DNA of 64,000 nt from Methanobrevibacter thaueri (GTDB lineage Archaea > Methanobacteriota > Methanobacteria > Methanobacteriales > Methanobacteriaceae). The position numbers were made by a program, and so were the translations under genes. The notes beneath the pieces are model-generated. The model saw nothing but the letters and a program-made list of their open reading frames with translations. It ran no database searches and was not told where the DNA came from. The stretch lies in assembly GCF_015062915.1 (NCBI RefSeq), contig NZ_SUTJ01000001.1, forward strand, positions 68,045 to 132,044. The letters are read 5' to 3'. This document shows, piece after piece, positions 30,444-34,104 of the stretch. Each line of letters opens with the position of its first letter. Position 1 is the stretch's first letter.

Positions 30444-33400
30444 TTAGAATGACAAGCTGGAGTAGATACCGTTTAAGGTAAATGAGTTTGTATTCCAATT
30501 AGATACTGATCCTAAAGAGTTTCTTGAACTAGTTGCATCAGCAACATACCATTGACCGTTAACCAATACCTGAGTCCATACGTGACCGTATGTGCTTCCG
30601 CTTGAGAACTTACAGGTACCGTGTACGTATCTTGCCTCAAGACCTGCGGTTCTGAACATTGCAACCAACAGGTGTGAATGGTCAACACAATTACCTTTTC
30701 CGGCGCTTAAAGTACCGGTAGCACCATATTTGGTGTTATAGTAGAAACTATATGATATATGGTCCCTGACGTAATTGAATATCGCTTTAGCTTTAGCCAG
30801 ATCAGTGGTCAATCCTTTTGTAACTGAATTGACAATAGATTTAATTGCTGAAGCGCCAACTTGACAGTTGGTTGTGGACTTGAGATACTTGGCCAAACTG
30901 GTTTCAGTACATTTCTCATTCAATCCTGAACCTGTTCCGGTTGTTGAACTTGAACTGGAATCTGAACTGGAACTTGAGCTTGAAGCGTAAGTAACAGTCA
31001 CATAGCTAGGCAATCTATTTTCGGTATCGTAGAAGTACAATACGCGTGAAAATGCGTCAACCAATTCGGAGTAGATAATCTTACCCACGTCGGATGAAGC
31101 ATAGTTCGGAGCATGATTGTTTGTGCTAATGAACACTGCAACATTCTTTGCGACAGTTACATAATCGTATAACTTTTTAGAGTTTATTGTGTCTCCGGAA
31201 GGAGCGCTTGGTACTGAAACTCCGCTAAGGACAATAATGTCATTGGTATTGGAACTGTTTATTTGATATATTGCTTGACTCATCAAGTACAGGAATTCCG
31301 GTAAAGTGAATGTGTATCCTCCGGTTGTTACTGTATTAGGCAGTTTGCCGTTGGAGTCATAGAACTTTTTCAGATTGGTTGCACCAGTGACAATATTCTT
31401 GATGGATACTGTCTTGACTGATGAGGATGATGAGGACACAGAATTGAAGTCCACATCGTTTGAAATACCGTATCTGAACAATACGACACCGGCTGATCCA
31501 CCTTTCAACGCTGATGCTATGTCAGTTTTGAGCTCTGATGTTGAGAGTTTTGTTGTATCCTCATCGGACTTGTATGTTTGAATACCTGTCCATACATCAG
31601 CTCCTTTTGAGTTTTCCACATACCATTTGGTTGCTGAAGCAATCCATGTAGTGTCCTTGTTATAATTTCCCTTATAGACCATAGGGATTACTACATCCAT
31701 GTACTTACTTAATGAGTCATAATCCTGTCCATAATAATATGCGCTGCTTGTAGTTTCAGGCATCAATGCACAGGATAGGACCAAATTACTGTTAATTGAA
31801 TCAACAGCAGTCTTAACCTGCTTTACAAATGATGTTATTGCTTCGGTTCCTCCAGTAGTCTTATAAGCGGTTCCAGGATATCTTAAATAATCCAAGTGGA
31901 TACCTGAAAGACCTTTTAAAGCCGCATAAGTTTTTATTTCATTTATTTTAGTTGTGAAATATGATGTATATTCCTTGCCGTCTTTAACTGGATTTACCCA
32001 ACCTGTGCTGCCTGAGTAGAATGCCTGAACCCACATGTGAACATCGATTCCGACTTCAGACGCACTAGCAATCCATGATTCAACACCTGATTTACCGTAT
32101 AATTCGTAAGCCTTGAAGTTCAATAGAATATCTGTAACTCCTTTTGAAGCAAGAGTCTTAAGGTTCACGCTTTTCATGTCTGAACCGTACAACCAATATG
32201 CATTATGTGTTGTTACAGTCTTTTCCTTGATTGTAACTGTACTTGACGCAGTTTTAGCGTTTATCTTGGAGTCCTTAGCTATTGAATACTTAATTGTGTG
32301 CTTACCTATCACCAAATCAATCGGTAACGATGCGATACCATTGCTGTCAGTGGTTTTAGTATATGTTTTACCGTCCACATTGAATGTGATCTTTTTGCTT
32401 ATTAATGGAACGCCAGCTGCAGTTACAGCAACCTTAAATGTGTTGCTTTTACCATAAGTGAAGCTGGTTCCGCTTTTTACAGTAAATGTAGGAGTTTTAG
32501 TAGTAATGATAGTTACTTTACTTGTTGTACTTGATGCCTTATAGAAACTATTCCCTTCAAATTTATATTTTACTGTATAAACCCCTTTCGCCAATGAAGG
32601 AAGATTAAGTGAAGCAATACCATTGGCATTTGTTGTTCTAGAATATGTTTTTCCATTGATAGTAAATTTAACTACTTTTCCTTTGCCCGGAGCGTATCCG
32701 AACTTGTTTAACAATTTGACTTTAATTTTCTTAGTGTCAGTATTAAGGAAAACGTAATTGCTTGCAGTTAATGATGAAGTAGTAGACCTAACTACCTTAA
32801 CAGTGTTGGTTTTTGTCAAACCATCAGTGTTATAAGAGATTATCTTATAGGTTCCCTTTTTAAGGGTGGTCAATGATAAACTAGCAACACCATTAGCATC
32901 TGTTTTTACCTTATATGTTTTTCCGTTAATCTTAAACTTAACTGTCTTTTTAGCTAGAGCCTTACCGTTGCTTTTAAGGAATTTAGCAGTGAATTTTCTG
33001 CCATCAGTGTACACCTTAGAGATGTCACTTGCAGTGATTGTTGACAGTACCTTGAAGGTTGTAGTCAACTTATAACCTGTAACAGGGTTTTGTGCAATCA
33101 CCTTGTAGGTTCCAGGTTTAAGATTTATGCTTAAAGAAGCCACACCTTTCGCATTGGTCTTTTTGGTGTATGTCACTCCATTGGCAGTGATCTTGACATT
33201 GGTGTTCGCCAGAGGATTTCCGTACTCATCCAAAAAGGTAGCTGTGTATTGTGCAGTTCCCTTATAATATTTAGTGATATCCTTTGCCTGAATAGTCTTT
33301 GATACATCGATTTTTGAAGAAACATTGCCTTCTGCACTTAACAGCTCATTGTCGGATGAAGCTGATAGGCTGGCAATCCCATTTTCACTATTCAAGAGAT

Positions 33401-33686
33401 AGTCACTATCCGAGTTAGTTGATAAAGTATTTGAATTTTCAGATTCTAAAACTTCTTCACTTGATAGAGAAACTTTAGATGAATCATTATCAACATTTGA
33501 AACACTTGATACAGAAATTTCTGATGAATCAGCAGTTTTCTCCAGTGGGACTGATACATCTGATGTGTCATCTACTAAGCTAGTAGCATATGAATCTGTA
33601 ACATTAACATCACTTGCTGATATTGCGCTGAGCGATAACACAGCCGTGAACAATACCACTAAAGTGAGTAATATTTTTTTGTTCAA
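30444..33686 (-). CDS. Secreted multidomain pseudomurein hydrolase candidate
   Basis: 1080 residues. Order: signal peptide 1-24; Ser/Thr/Asn-rich low-complexity 25-125; four Ig-like beta repeats about 126-488 with recurrent 'GKTYTKTTDSNGIASL'-type motif; a glycosidase-like TIM barrel 494-740 with 'GIHLDYLRYPG' (D599) as in the YngK/GHL10 family; two pseudomurein-binding repeats about 760-815 and 850-900; a Ser linker 901-920; and a transglutaminase-like cysteine peptidase 921-1080 with C1000 ('GKGNCVDHS'), H1035 ('TYGHVW') and D1050 ('YVADATS'). The last domain and repeats match C71 pseudomurein endoisopeptidases. It starts at TTG 33686 after AAGGAGGTAAAA. Likely a wall-remodelling enzyme; both activities are inferred from motifs. 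Confidence 0.8.
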   Translation of the reverse strand: MNKKILLTLVVLFTAVLSLSAISASDVNVTDSYATSLVDDTSDVSVPLEKTADSSEISVSSVSNVDNDSSKVSLSSEEVLESENSNTLSTNSDSDYLLNSENGIASLSASSDNELLSAEGNVSSKIDVSKTIQAKDITKYYKGTAQYTATFLDEYGNPLANTNVKITANGVTYTKKTNAKGVASLSINLKPGTYKVIAQNPVTGYKLTTTFKVLSTITASDISKVYTDGRKFTAKFLKSNGKALAKKTVKFKINGKTYKVKTDANGVASLSLTTLKKGTYKIISYNTDGLTKTNTVKVVRSTTSSLTASNYVFLNTDTKKIKVKLLNKFGYAPGKGKVVKFTINGKTYSRTTNANGIASLNLPSLAKGVYTVKYKFEGNSFYKASSTTSKVTIITTKTPTFTVKSGTSFTYGKSNTFKVAVTAAGVPLISKKITFNVDGKTYTKTTDSNGIASLPIDLVIGKHTIKYSIAKDSKINAKTASSTVTIKEKTVTTHNAYWLYGSDMKSVNLKTLASKGVTDILLNFKAYELYGKSGVESWIASASEVGIDVHMWVQAFYSGSTGWVNPVKDGKEYTSYFTTKINEIKTYAALKGLSGIHLDYLRYPGTAYKTTGGTEAITSFVKQVKTAVDSINSNLVLSCALMPETTSSAYYYGQDYDSLSKYMDVVIPMVYKGNYNKDTTWIASATKWYVENSKGADVWTGIQTYKSDEDTTKLSTSELKTDIASALKGGSAGVVLFRYGISNDVDFNSVSSSSSSVKTVSIKNIVTGATNLKKFYDSNGKLPNTVTTGGYTFTLPEFLYLMSQAIYQINSSNTNDIIVLSGVSVPSAPSGDTINSKKLYDYVTVAKNVAVFISTNNHAPNYASSDVGKIIYSELVDAFSRVLYFYDTENRLPSYVTVTYASSSSSSSDSSSSSTTGTGSGLNEKCTETSLAKYLKSTTNCQVGASAIKSIVNSVTKGLTTDLAKAKAIFNYVRDHISYSFYYNTKYGATGTLSAGKGNCVDHSHLLVAMFRTAGLEARYVHGTCKFSSGSTYGHVWTQVLVNGQWYVADATSSRNSLGSVSNWNTNSFTLNGIYSSLSF

Positions 33687-34104
33687 AATATTTTACCTCC
33701 TTAACAAAATTTTTAAAAATTAATGAGAATATTTTCTCATCGTACAAATATTTATTGCAAATATCTTATATAAAGCTTTGTATTTGCTAAATCCAATTAA
33801 ATGAGTTTAATTTTTAAAATTAAGTCTAAAACTTTATGAAAATAAACAAAGAAGTAAAAATATCTTTGAATTAAGCTTTAAAAGAATATTACATGATGAA
33901 ACATTTTTTAAAGTGACTTAATAAAACAAAAATAAGAACAGTAATGTTAAAGCTTTTTAGATAAAATAGGGCATGATTTAAAGTTATTTAAGCTATAACC
34001 ATAAAGATAAGTCAAGTTATAATTAAAAACAATAAGTTTAACAAAGAATATTAAAAAATAAGCAAAAATAATAAAAAAAAGAAAAATGTGTAAAATTTTT
34101 AATT
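33687..34104 (-). promoter_or_regulatory. Promoter and leader of the wall-hydrolase gene, otherwise AT-rich gap
   Basis: The minus strand has AAGCTTTATATAAG at about 33765-33778, a strong TATA box, with transcription expected near 33742. The leader holds ATGAGAATATTTTCTCAT (33723-33740), a perfect 7-base-arm hairpin, followed by AAGGAGGT just before the TTG start. From about 33790 to 34100 I see only AT-rich DNA with T-rich runs after the thermosome stop; no gene or RNA is recognised there. Confidence 0.5.

Follow-up and report, generated by a model that had tools for sequence, protein, structure and literature searches.

A secreted methanogen protein with candidate glycan- and peptide-cutting domains for pseudomurein, and its relatives in archaea and bacteria

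Introduction

The enzymes known to open pseudomurein are peptide cutters, and in the literature searched no glycan cutter is named: we found there neither a named pseudomurein glycosidase nor a bacterial pseudomurein-utilisation locus. One gene of Methanobrevibacter thaueri, located in a stretch of DNA of 64,000 nucleotides that was analysed as a whole (the window), raises the question of whether a single exported protein could cut both the sugar chains and the peptides of this wall polymer. An earlier note, made from the sequence alone, had proposed a secreted protein with candidate glycan- and peptide-cutting domains for pseudomurein. The architecture proves to be widespread and not a single instance. 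The core of that proposal is supported here, although no activity has been demonstrated. The enzyme acting on archaeal wall sugar chains has yet to be identified, and the barrel domain of the protein is a concrete candidate for it. If this is true, the wall could be dismantled for analysis with the help of a glycan-cutting partner, which would also improve methanogen lysis for DNA extraction, imaging, and genetics, and help explain how methanogen cells enlarge and separate.

Gene and domain architecture

The gene occupies exactly the interval first assigned to it (Table 1) and is preceded by a ribosome-binding site, GGAGGT, at positions 33695-33700, about 8 bases upstream of the start codon. 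Pfam searches and inspection of the sequence give the domain order signal peptide, Ig-like repeats, barrel, pseudomurein-binding repeats (PMBR), and C-terminal transglutaminase-fold (TG) domain. Several claims of the earlier note held, namely the four Ig-like repeats, the pseudomurein-binding repeats after the barrel, and, at the positions given, the motif GIHLDYLRYP with D599 and the residues C1000, H1035, and D1050. Its names for the two candidate catalytic domains fared less well. The label “GHL10-like” failed by Pfam, as a profile search with PF02638 (GHL10) gave no match to the protein and only weak matches in 20 of 61 relatives, and the barrel is instead assigned to PF13200 (DUF4015). 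The label “C71-like peptidase” held in part: Pfam assigns PF01841 and the C71 score is below threshold, but the triad and a Pei-like fold are present. Searches of NCBIfam and PHROGs returned nothing decisive for this protein.

Table 1. Features of the gene and its product (positions are those of the window).
Feature	Position	Strand	Basis
Whole gene	30444..33686	-	Single ORF, 1080 aa, TTG start
Signal peptide, residues ~1-24 (MNKKILLTLVVLFTAVLSLSAISASD)	33615..33686	-	Read from sequence, no predictor
Four Ig-like repeats, residues ~119-490	32217..33332	-	PF02369 / PF16640, four stretches each
(Beta/alpha)8 barrel, residues 491-754, candidate glycan-cleaving domain	31425..32216	-	PF13200, AlphaFold2, Foldseek
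Asp599, end of strand 4, candidate catalytic residue	31890..31892	-	Conservation; position from model
Glu644, just after strand 5, candidate catalytic residue	31755..31757	-	Conservation
Pseudomurein-binding region, residues ~757-905	30972..31418	-	PF09373, two stretches; model
Transglutaminase-fold / Pei-like domain, residues 936-1080	30447..30881	-	PF01841, Foldseek
Cys1000, candidate nucleophile	30687..30689	-	Invariant in 42/42 TG domains; also 21/21 bacterial
His1035	30582..30584	-	Invariant in 42/42 TG domains; also 21/21 bacterial
Asp1050	30537..30539	-	Invariant in 42/42 TG domains; also 21/21 bacterial

The barrel domain

PF13200, described as a putative glycosyl hydrolase domain, scores 35.4 bits with the whole protein and 39.0 bits with the isolated domain (curated cut-off 27 bits), and thus the criterion for family membership is met. 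All 61 relatives also match it at E ≤ 0.1. A predicted structure lacking the family carboxylates would have refuted the original proposal; the AlphaFold2 model, built from a 61-sequence alignment, is confident (pLDDT 96.3, pTM 0.93), the carboxylates are conserved, and both D599 and E644 lie at the C-terminal mouth of the modelled barrel. Among 73 archaeal barrels picked by hand, all have D599, R602, Y652, D664, Y671, and W681, and 72 keep E644. Conservation at these sites, like that of the C-H-D residues of the TG domain, greatly exceeds what chance would give. Among bacterial barrels, D599 is found in 12/12 of a first set and in 35/35 from the Bacteroidales gene cluster described below, and E644 in 11/12 and 33/35, respectively, the remainder of the latter having Asp. 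The Bacteroidales-cluster barrels are invariant at D599, Y600, R602, Y652, Y671, and Y705 and often have His in place of D664; the acidic pair is thereby narrowed to D599 and E644.

When the barrel model was compared with the PDB by Foldseek, the closest solved fold was Cwp19 of Clostridioides difficile (5oq2, E 1.1e-10), followed by PgaB and then GH164. Cwp19 is a GHL10 lytic transglycosylase of the cell wall (PMC6016235) whose structure report stresses D196, Y197, and Y297 and notes that Gly replaces the strand-7 Glu (PMC5765458). These residues resemble D599, Y600, and Y671: both barrels have Asp-Tyr after strand 4, Tyr after strand 6, and no strand-7 Glu, and both proteins carry wall-binding modules on the same polypeptide. 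The similarity is nevertheless one of fold only. Identity is ~17%, the substrate of Cwp19 is murein, and no counterpart of E644 is named in the structure paper. The second match, the C-terminal domain of PgaB (GH153), is a poly-GlcNAc hydrolase, but is only ~10% identical and acts on beta-1,6 poly-GlcNAc.

By sequence, GH18 enzymes are nearest to the barrel in profile searches. Membership of GH18 was rejected because the catalytic Glu is missing; in the HMM alignment the DxxDxDxE motif reads GIHLDYLR, and the catalytic Glu column is occupied by the invariant Arg602. D599 aligns with the third Asp of this motif, beside the missing Glu; the counterpart of Y671 is the Tyr of strand 6 in GH18. In GH18 and PgaB-type enzymes, such residues stabilise a 2-acetamido oxazolinium. 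The equivalence makes a substrate-assisted cut of GlcNAc/GalNAc/TalNAcA chains plausible. That the barrel is a glycan cutter is supported only by its fold and acidic pair; no activity has been shown, and the bond cut and the mechanism are inferred.

Pseudomurein-binding repeats and the transglutaminase-fold domain

The PMBR family (PF09373) matches at 54.9 bits (cut-off 24.9) in two stretches, residues 759-788 and 868-898; binding itself is inferred. A model of the PMBR-TG region (pLDDT 92.3, pTM 0.56, with a flexible linker) places four helix-strand units ahead of the TG domain, two of them recognised by Pfam, with pLDDT mostly above 90 across the PMBR region. Transglut_core (PF01841) is strongly matched (87.9 bits against a cut-off of 23; E 8e-26 for the domain), whereas Peptidase_C71 (PF12386) scores 18.0-20.5 bits, under its cut-off of 22, and reaches 23.7 in one relative (L140). 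Other features expected of C71 are present, namely the C-H-D triad residues, the PMBR ahead of the catalytic domain, and the Pei fold. Cleavage of the Ala-eps-Lys isopeptide bond is inferred.

Residues 758-1080 gave PeiP (8z4f) as best Foldseek match in the PDB, followed by a Cytophaga transglutaminase-like protein (3isr) and then PeiW, and the PeiP match covers both PMBRs and the catalytic domain. PeiW and PeiP (MEROPS C71) likewise have PMBR repeats ahead of a C-terminal transglutaminase-fold domain with C-H-D residues. Our protein differs from them in its strong PF01841 and sub-threshold C71 scores and in its additional Ig stalk and barrel, and it is encoded by a host gene at a conserved locus and is not a phage lysin. 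A protein of Methanobacterium virus Drs3 with PMBRs and PF01841, encoded near a tail gene, is 40% identical in the TG domain. Group III (TG-type) adhesin-like proteins of M. smithii and M. stadtmanae share the N-terminal export helix, the Ig-like repeats, and the PMBR beside a C-terminal TG, but as described they lack the barrel (PMC11532034). One M. smithii adhesin-like protein is listed with a putative glycosyl hydrolase domain, with no function proposed in the relevant sections (PMC11532034).

Distribution in methanogens

The M. thaueri genome encodes five barrel proteins and four TG proteins, this protein being included in both counts. Its closest TG paralogue (C20, L021) is 59-65% identical outside the barrel and has a fifth Ig-like repeat in the barrel's place; the parts are therefore modular. 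Some other paralogues carry a beta-helix or Ig-like repeats only. Across the phylum, the barrel family is found in 134 of 152 genomes and in 20/20 genera, in a search that covered one class only and left Methanopyrus outside its scope. The closest relatives in a scan of named genomes are from Methanobrevibacter.

PMBR are encoded on the same ORF as the barrel in 49 of the 73 sampled archaeal barrels, 31 of which have PMBR and TG and 18 PMBR only; the remaining 24 have neither. Genus g1 has the barrel-PMBR-TG fusion at 19 of the 20 loci L087-L106, with L106 among the fusions, and it is also present in other genera of family f1, in family f3, and in a 1.24-Mb genome listed under the same class and a different order (L140). 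One-off recombination as the source of the fusion was dropped, because the identical domain order is found in other families. Most g1 loci, and that of one related genome (L107), have retained the gene order thermosome, fusion, DtxR-type regulator, TrpS. Five complete genomes (two of genus g19 and three of g9) have no barrel but have TG and PMBR, and thus the barrel is dispensable. The most divergent archaeal barrels, those of genus g12 (L142-L146), have no PMBR in the same ORF, and the M. thaueri paralogue L026 is similar. An origin of the barrel as a phage lysin is unsupported, as none of the viral contigs and phage records searched contained a barrel relative.

Barrels in bacteria

Our initial expectation that the barrel would be restricted to pseudomurein makers was wrong, as two bacterial groups carry it. 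The Bacteroidales MAG SIG155 has two barrels in one co-directional cluster (L250, G156:C32:46000-65900), together with a BACON lipoprotein and a TG lipoprotein that both have PMBR-like regions and are encoded by separate genes (lipoprotein naming is based on reading of the sequence). The cluster also encodes two GH20 hexosaminidases, a MurQ-like protein, a C1-type peptidase, an M20-type amidohydrolase, a kinase weakly similar to NagK, a NagP-like transporter, and a GltS-like protein (named from its sequence). The Pfam PMBR model is sub-threshold in the cluster proteins, and a profile made from archaeal PMBR regions matches them at E 3e-16 and 3e-11. The parts of the archaeal fusion thus occur here as separate genes of one shared cluster, which is newly reported in this study.

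Among 399 genomes of this Bacteroidales family, TG is found in 22, and the barrel is found in 22/22 of these vs. 4/377 of the others (Fisher p ~2e-32, uncorrected for relatedness). Barrel and TG lie within one stretch of at most 20 kb in 19 of the 21 loci read, and in the other two the TG is near a contig end. The barrels of these clusters form one clade (support 100). That barrel and TG are paired separately in bacteria for which no pseudomurein synthesis is known speaks for a degradative role of both parts. The chief reason for caution is the MurQ-like (N-acetylmuramate-6-phosphate) etherase. It implicates N-acetylmuramic acid and, through it, perhaps murein, and it fits murein better than pseudomurein, a polymer without muramic acid.

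The second group lies in the order to which a Lentisphaerae-labelled rumen MAG (G152) belongs, where 11 of 162 genomes encode a secreted single-domain barrel 47-57% identical to that of M. thaueri. These barrels (L227, L233-L241) form one clade nested among the genus-g1 fusion barrels, with support of 92 to 99 depending on the tree, and are under purifying selection (dN/dS ~0.15). The simplest reading, which we consider likely, is transfer from a Methanobrevibacter-like donor. A Coriobacteriaceae-labelled contig ends in a barrel (L156, 3911-4723) nearly identical to a Lentisphaerae-labelled gene; on account of its contig-end position and near-identity, this match was treated as probable mis-assembly or mis-binning.

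Proposed function and alternatives

The architecture, conservation, folds, and co-occurrence described above are observed, and the substrate, chemistry, and physiological role proposed here are inferred. We favor, at a probability of roughly 0.6 and without any activity having been shown, a secreted bifunctional pseudomurein-remodelling enzyme in which the barrel cuts glycan and the TG domain cuts peptide. The signal peptide would export the protein, the Ig-like repeats would form a stalk, and the PMBR region would hold it on the pseudomurein sacculus. The barrel may cut the N-acetyl-aminosugar backbone using D599 and E644 as acidic pair, with Y671, R602, Y652, and Y705 around the site; hydrolysis and lytic transglycosylation remain undecided. 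The C-H-D domain would act on stem or cross-link isopeptide bonds, most likely cleaving them as PeiW and PeiP do, and the role in the cell may be wall growth, turnover, or separation. Some bacteria would employ related forms of the two parts, probably in digesting the walls of methanogens.

In favor of this reading, the barrel-TG pairing is conserved within methanogens and, independently, in the bacterial cluster. Against it, no member's activity is shown in the literature searched, the barrel is dispensable in some complete genomes, the g12 and L026 barrels are without PMBR, and only two PMBRs reach Pfam recognition vs. the three reported necessary for binding in one protein (PMC2989375). A bolder version holds that the barrel founds a new family of glycoside hydrolases or lytic transglycosylases specific for pseudomurein glycan, that its fusion to an endoisopeptidase serves Methanobacteriales as a bifunctional autolysin, and that some Bacteroidales (with a locus for complete digestion, import, and catabolism) and Lentisphaerae-labelled bacteria took the barrel over to feed on methanogen walls. 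As one joint claim, we consider this slightly more likely to be wrong than right. Were bacteria to digest methanogen walls by means of such a locus, this would add a new trophic link, and the locus would supply enzymes for use against methane producers.

The alternative that remains possible places the protein on the synthesis side: the TG domain would be a transpeptidase that links Glu and Lys on adjacent pseudomurein strands, and the barrel would trim or open glycan for strand insertion, so that the protein would not be an autolysin. Exported transglutaminases have been named the best candidates for the cross-linking step (PMC11915815, PMC2812497), Pfam assigns PF01841 rather than C71, and TG homologues occur in 12/12 good-quality archaeal genomes checked. 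However, a similar PMBR-TG protein is encoded by the lytic virus Drs3, PeiP is the closest complete fold, and in the bacterial clusters a TG with PMBR-like repeats lies beside GH20s, transporters, and peptidases, where pseudomurein cross-linking would make no sense.

We regard as unlikely that barrel and TG act on bacterial peptidoglycan, with the methanogen attacking or scavenging bacteria and the bacterial cluster being a murein-salvage locus. Cwp19 and the MurQ-like etherase speak for a murein substrate, and murein hydrolases are known in archaea (PMC12352652), but only two homologues of these were found in Methanobacteria/Methanopyri (PMC12352652), the barrel is tied to PMBRs and a Pei-like domain in archaea and bacteria alike, and it is conserved across a whole phylum of pseudomurein makers. 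Least probable of all is an adhesin-like protein whose barrel and TG serve chiefly for binding or are no longer active. The Ig stalk and a build like that of the group III adhesin-like proteins fit this idea, as do the M. thaueri paralogues with only a beta-helix or Ig-like repeats. Contrary to it, catalytic-type residues are near-invariant over archaea and two bacterial groups while the remainder diverges to ~30% identity, and dN/dS is low in the bacteria that carry the secreted barrel alone.

Barrel variants and further loci

In barrels of several lineages (L133-L135, L137-L139), the profile match is interrupted by an extra segment of ~60-70 aa and so falls into two parts. In genus g12, one protein bears a beta-helix (L143) and another consists of two barrels in tandem (L145). 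A second conserved barrel locus (L022 and L152) is formed by a tandem Ig-barrel gene pair adjoining a CapA-like gene, named by eye. In the Bacteroidales, the conserved cluster recurs at L261-L280 and is a candidate pseudomurein-utilisation locus. The third barrel of SIG155 (L244, G156:C25:10000-22000) is located near two GDPD-like genes and two NagB-like (glucosamine-6-phosphate deaminase-like) genes, also named by eye.
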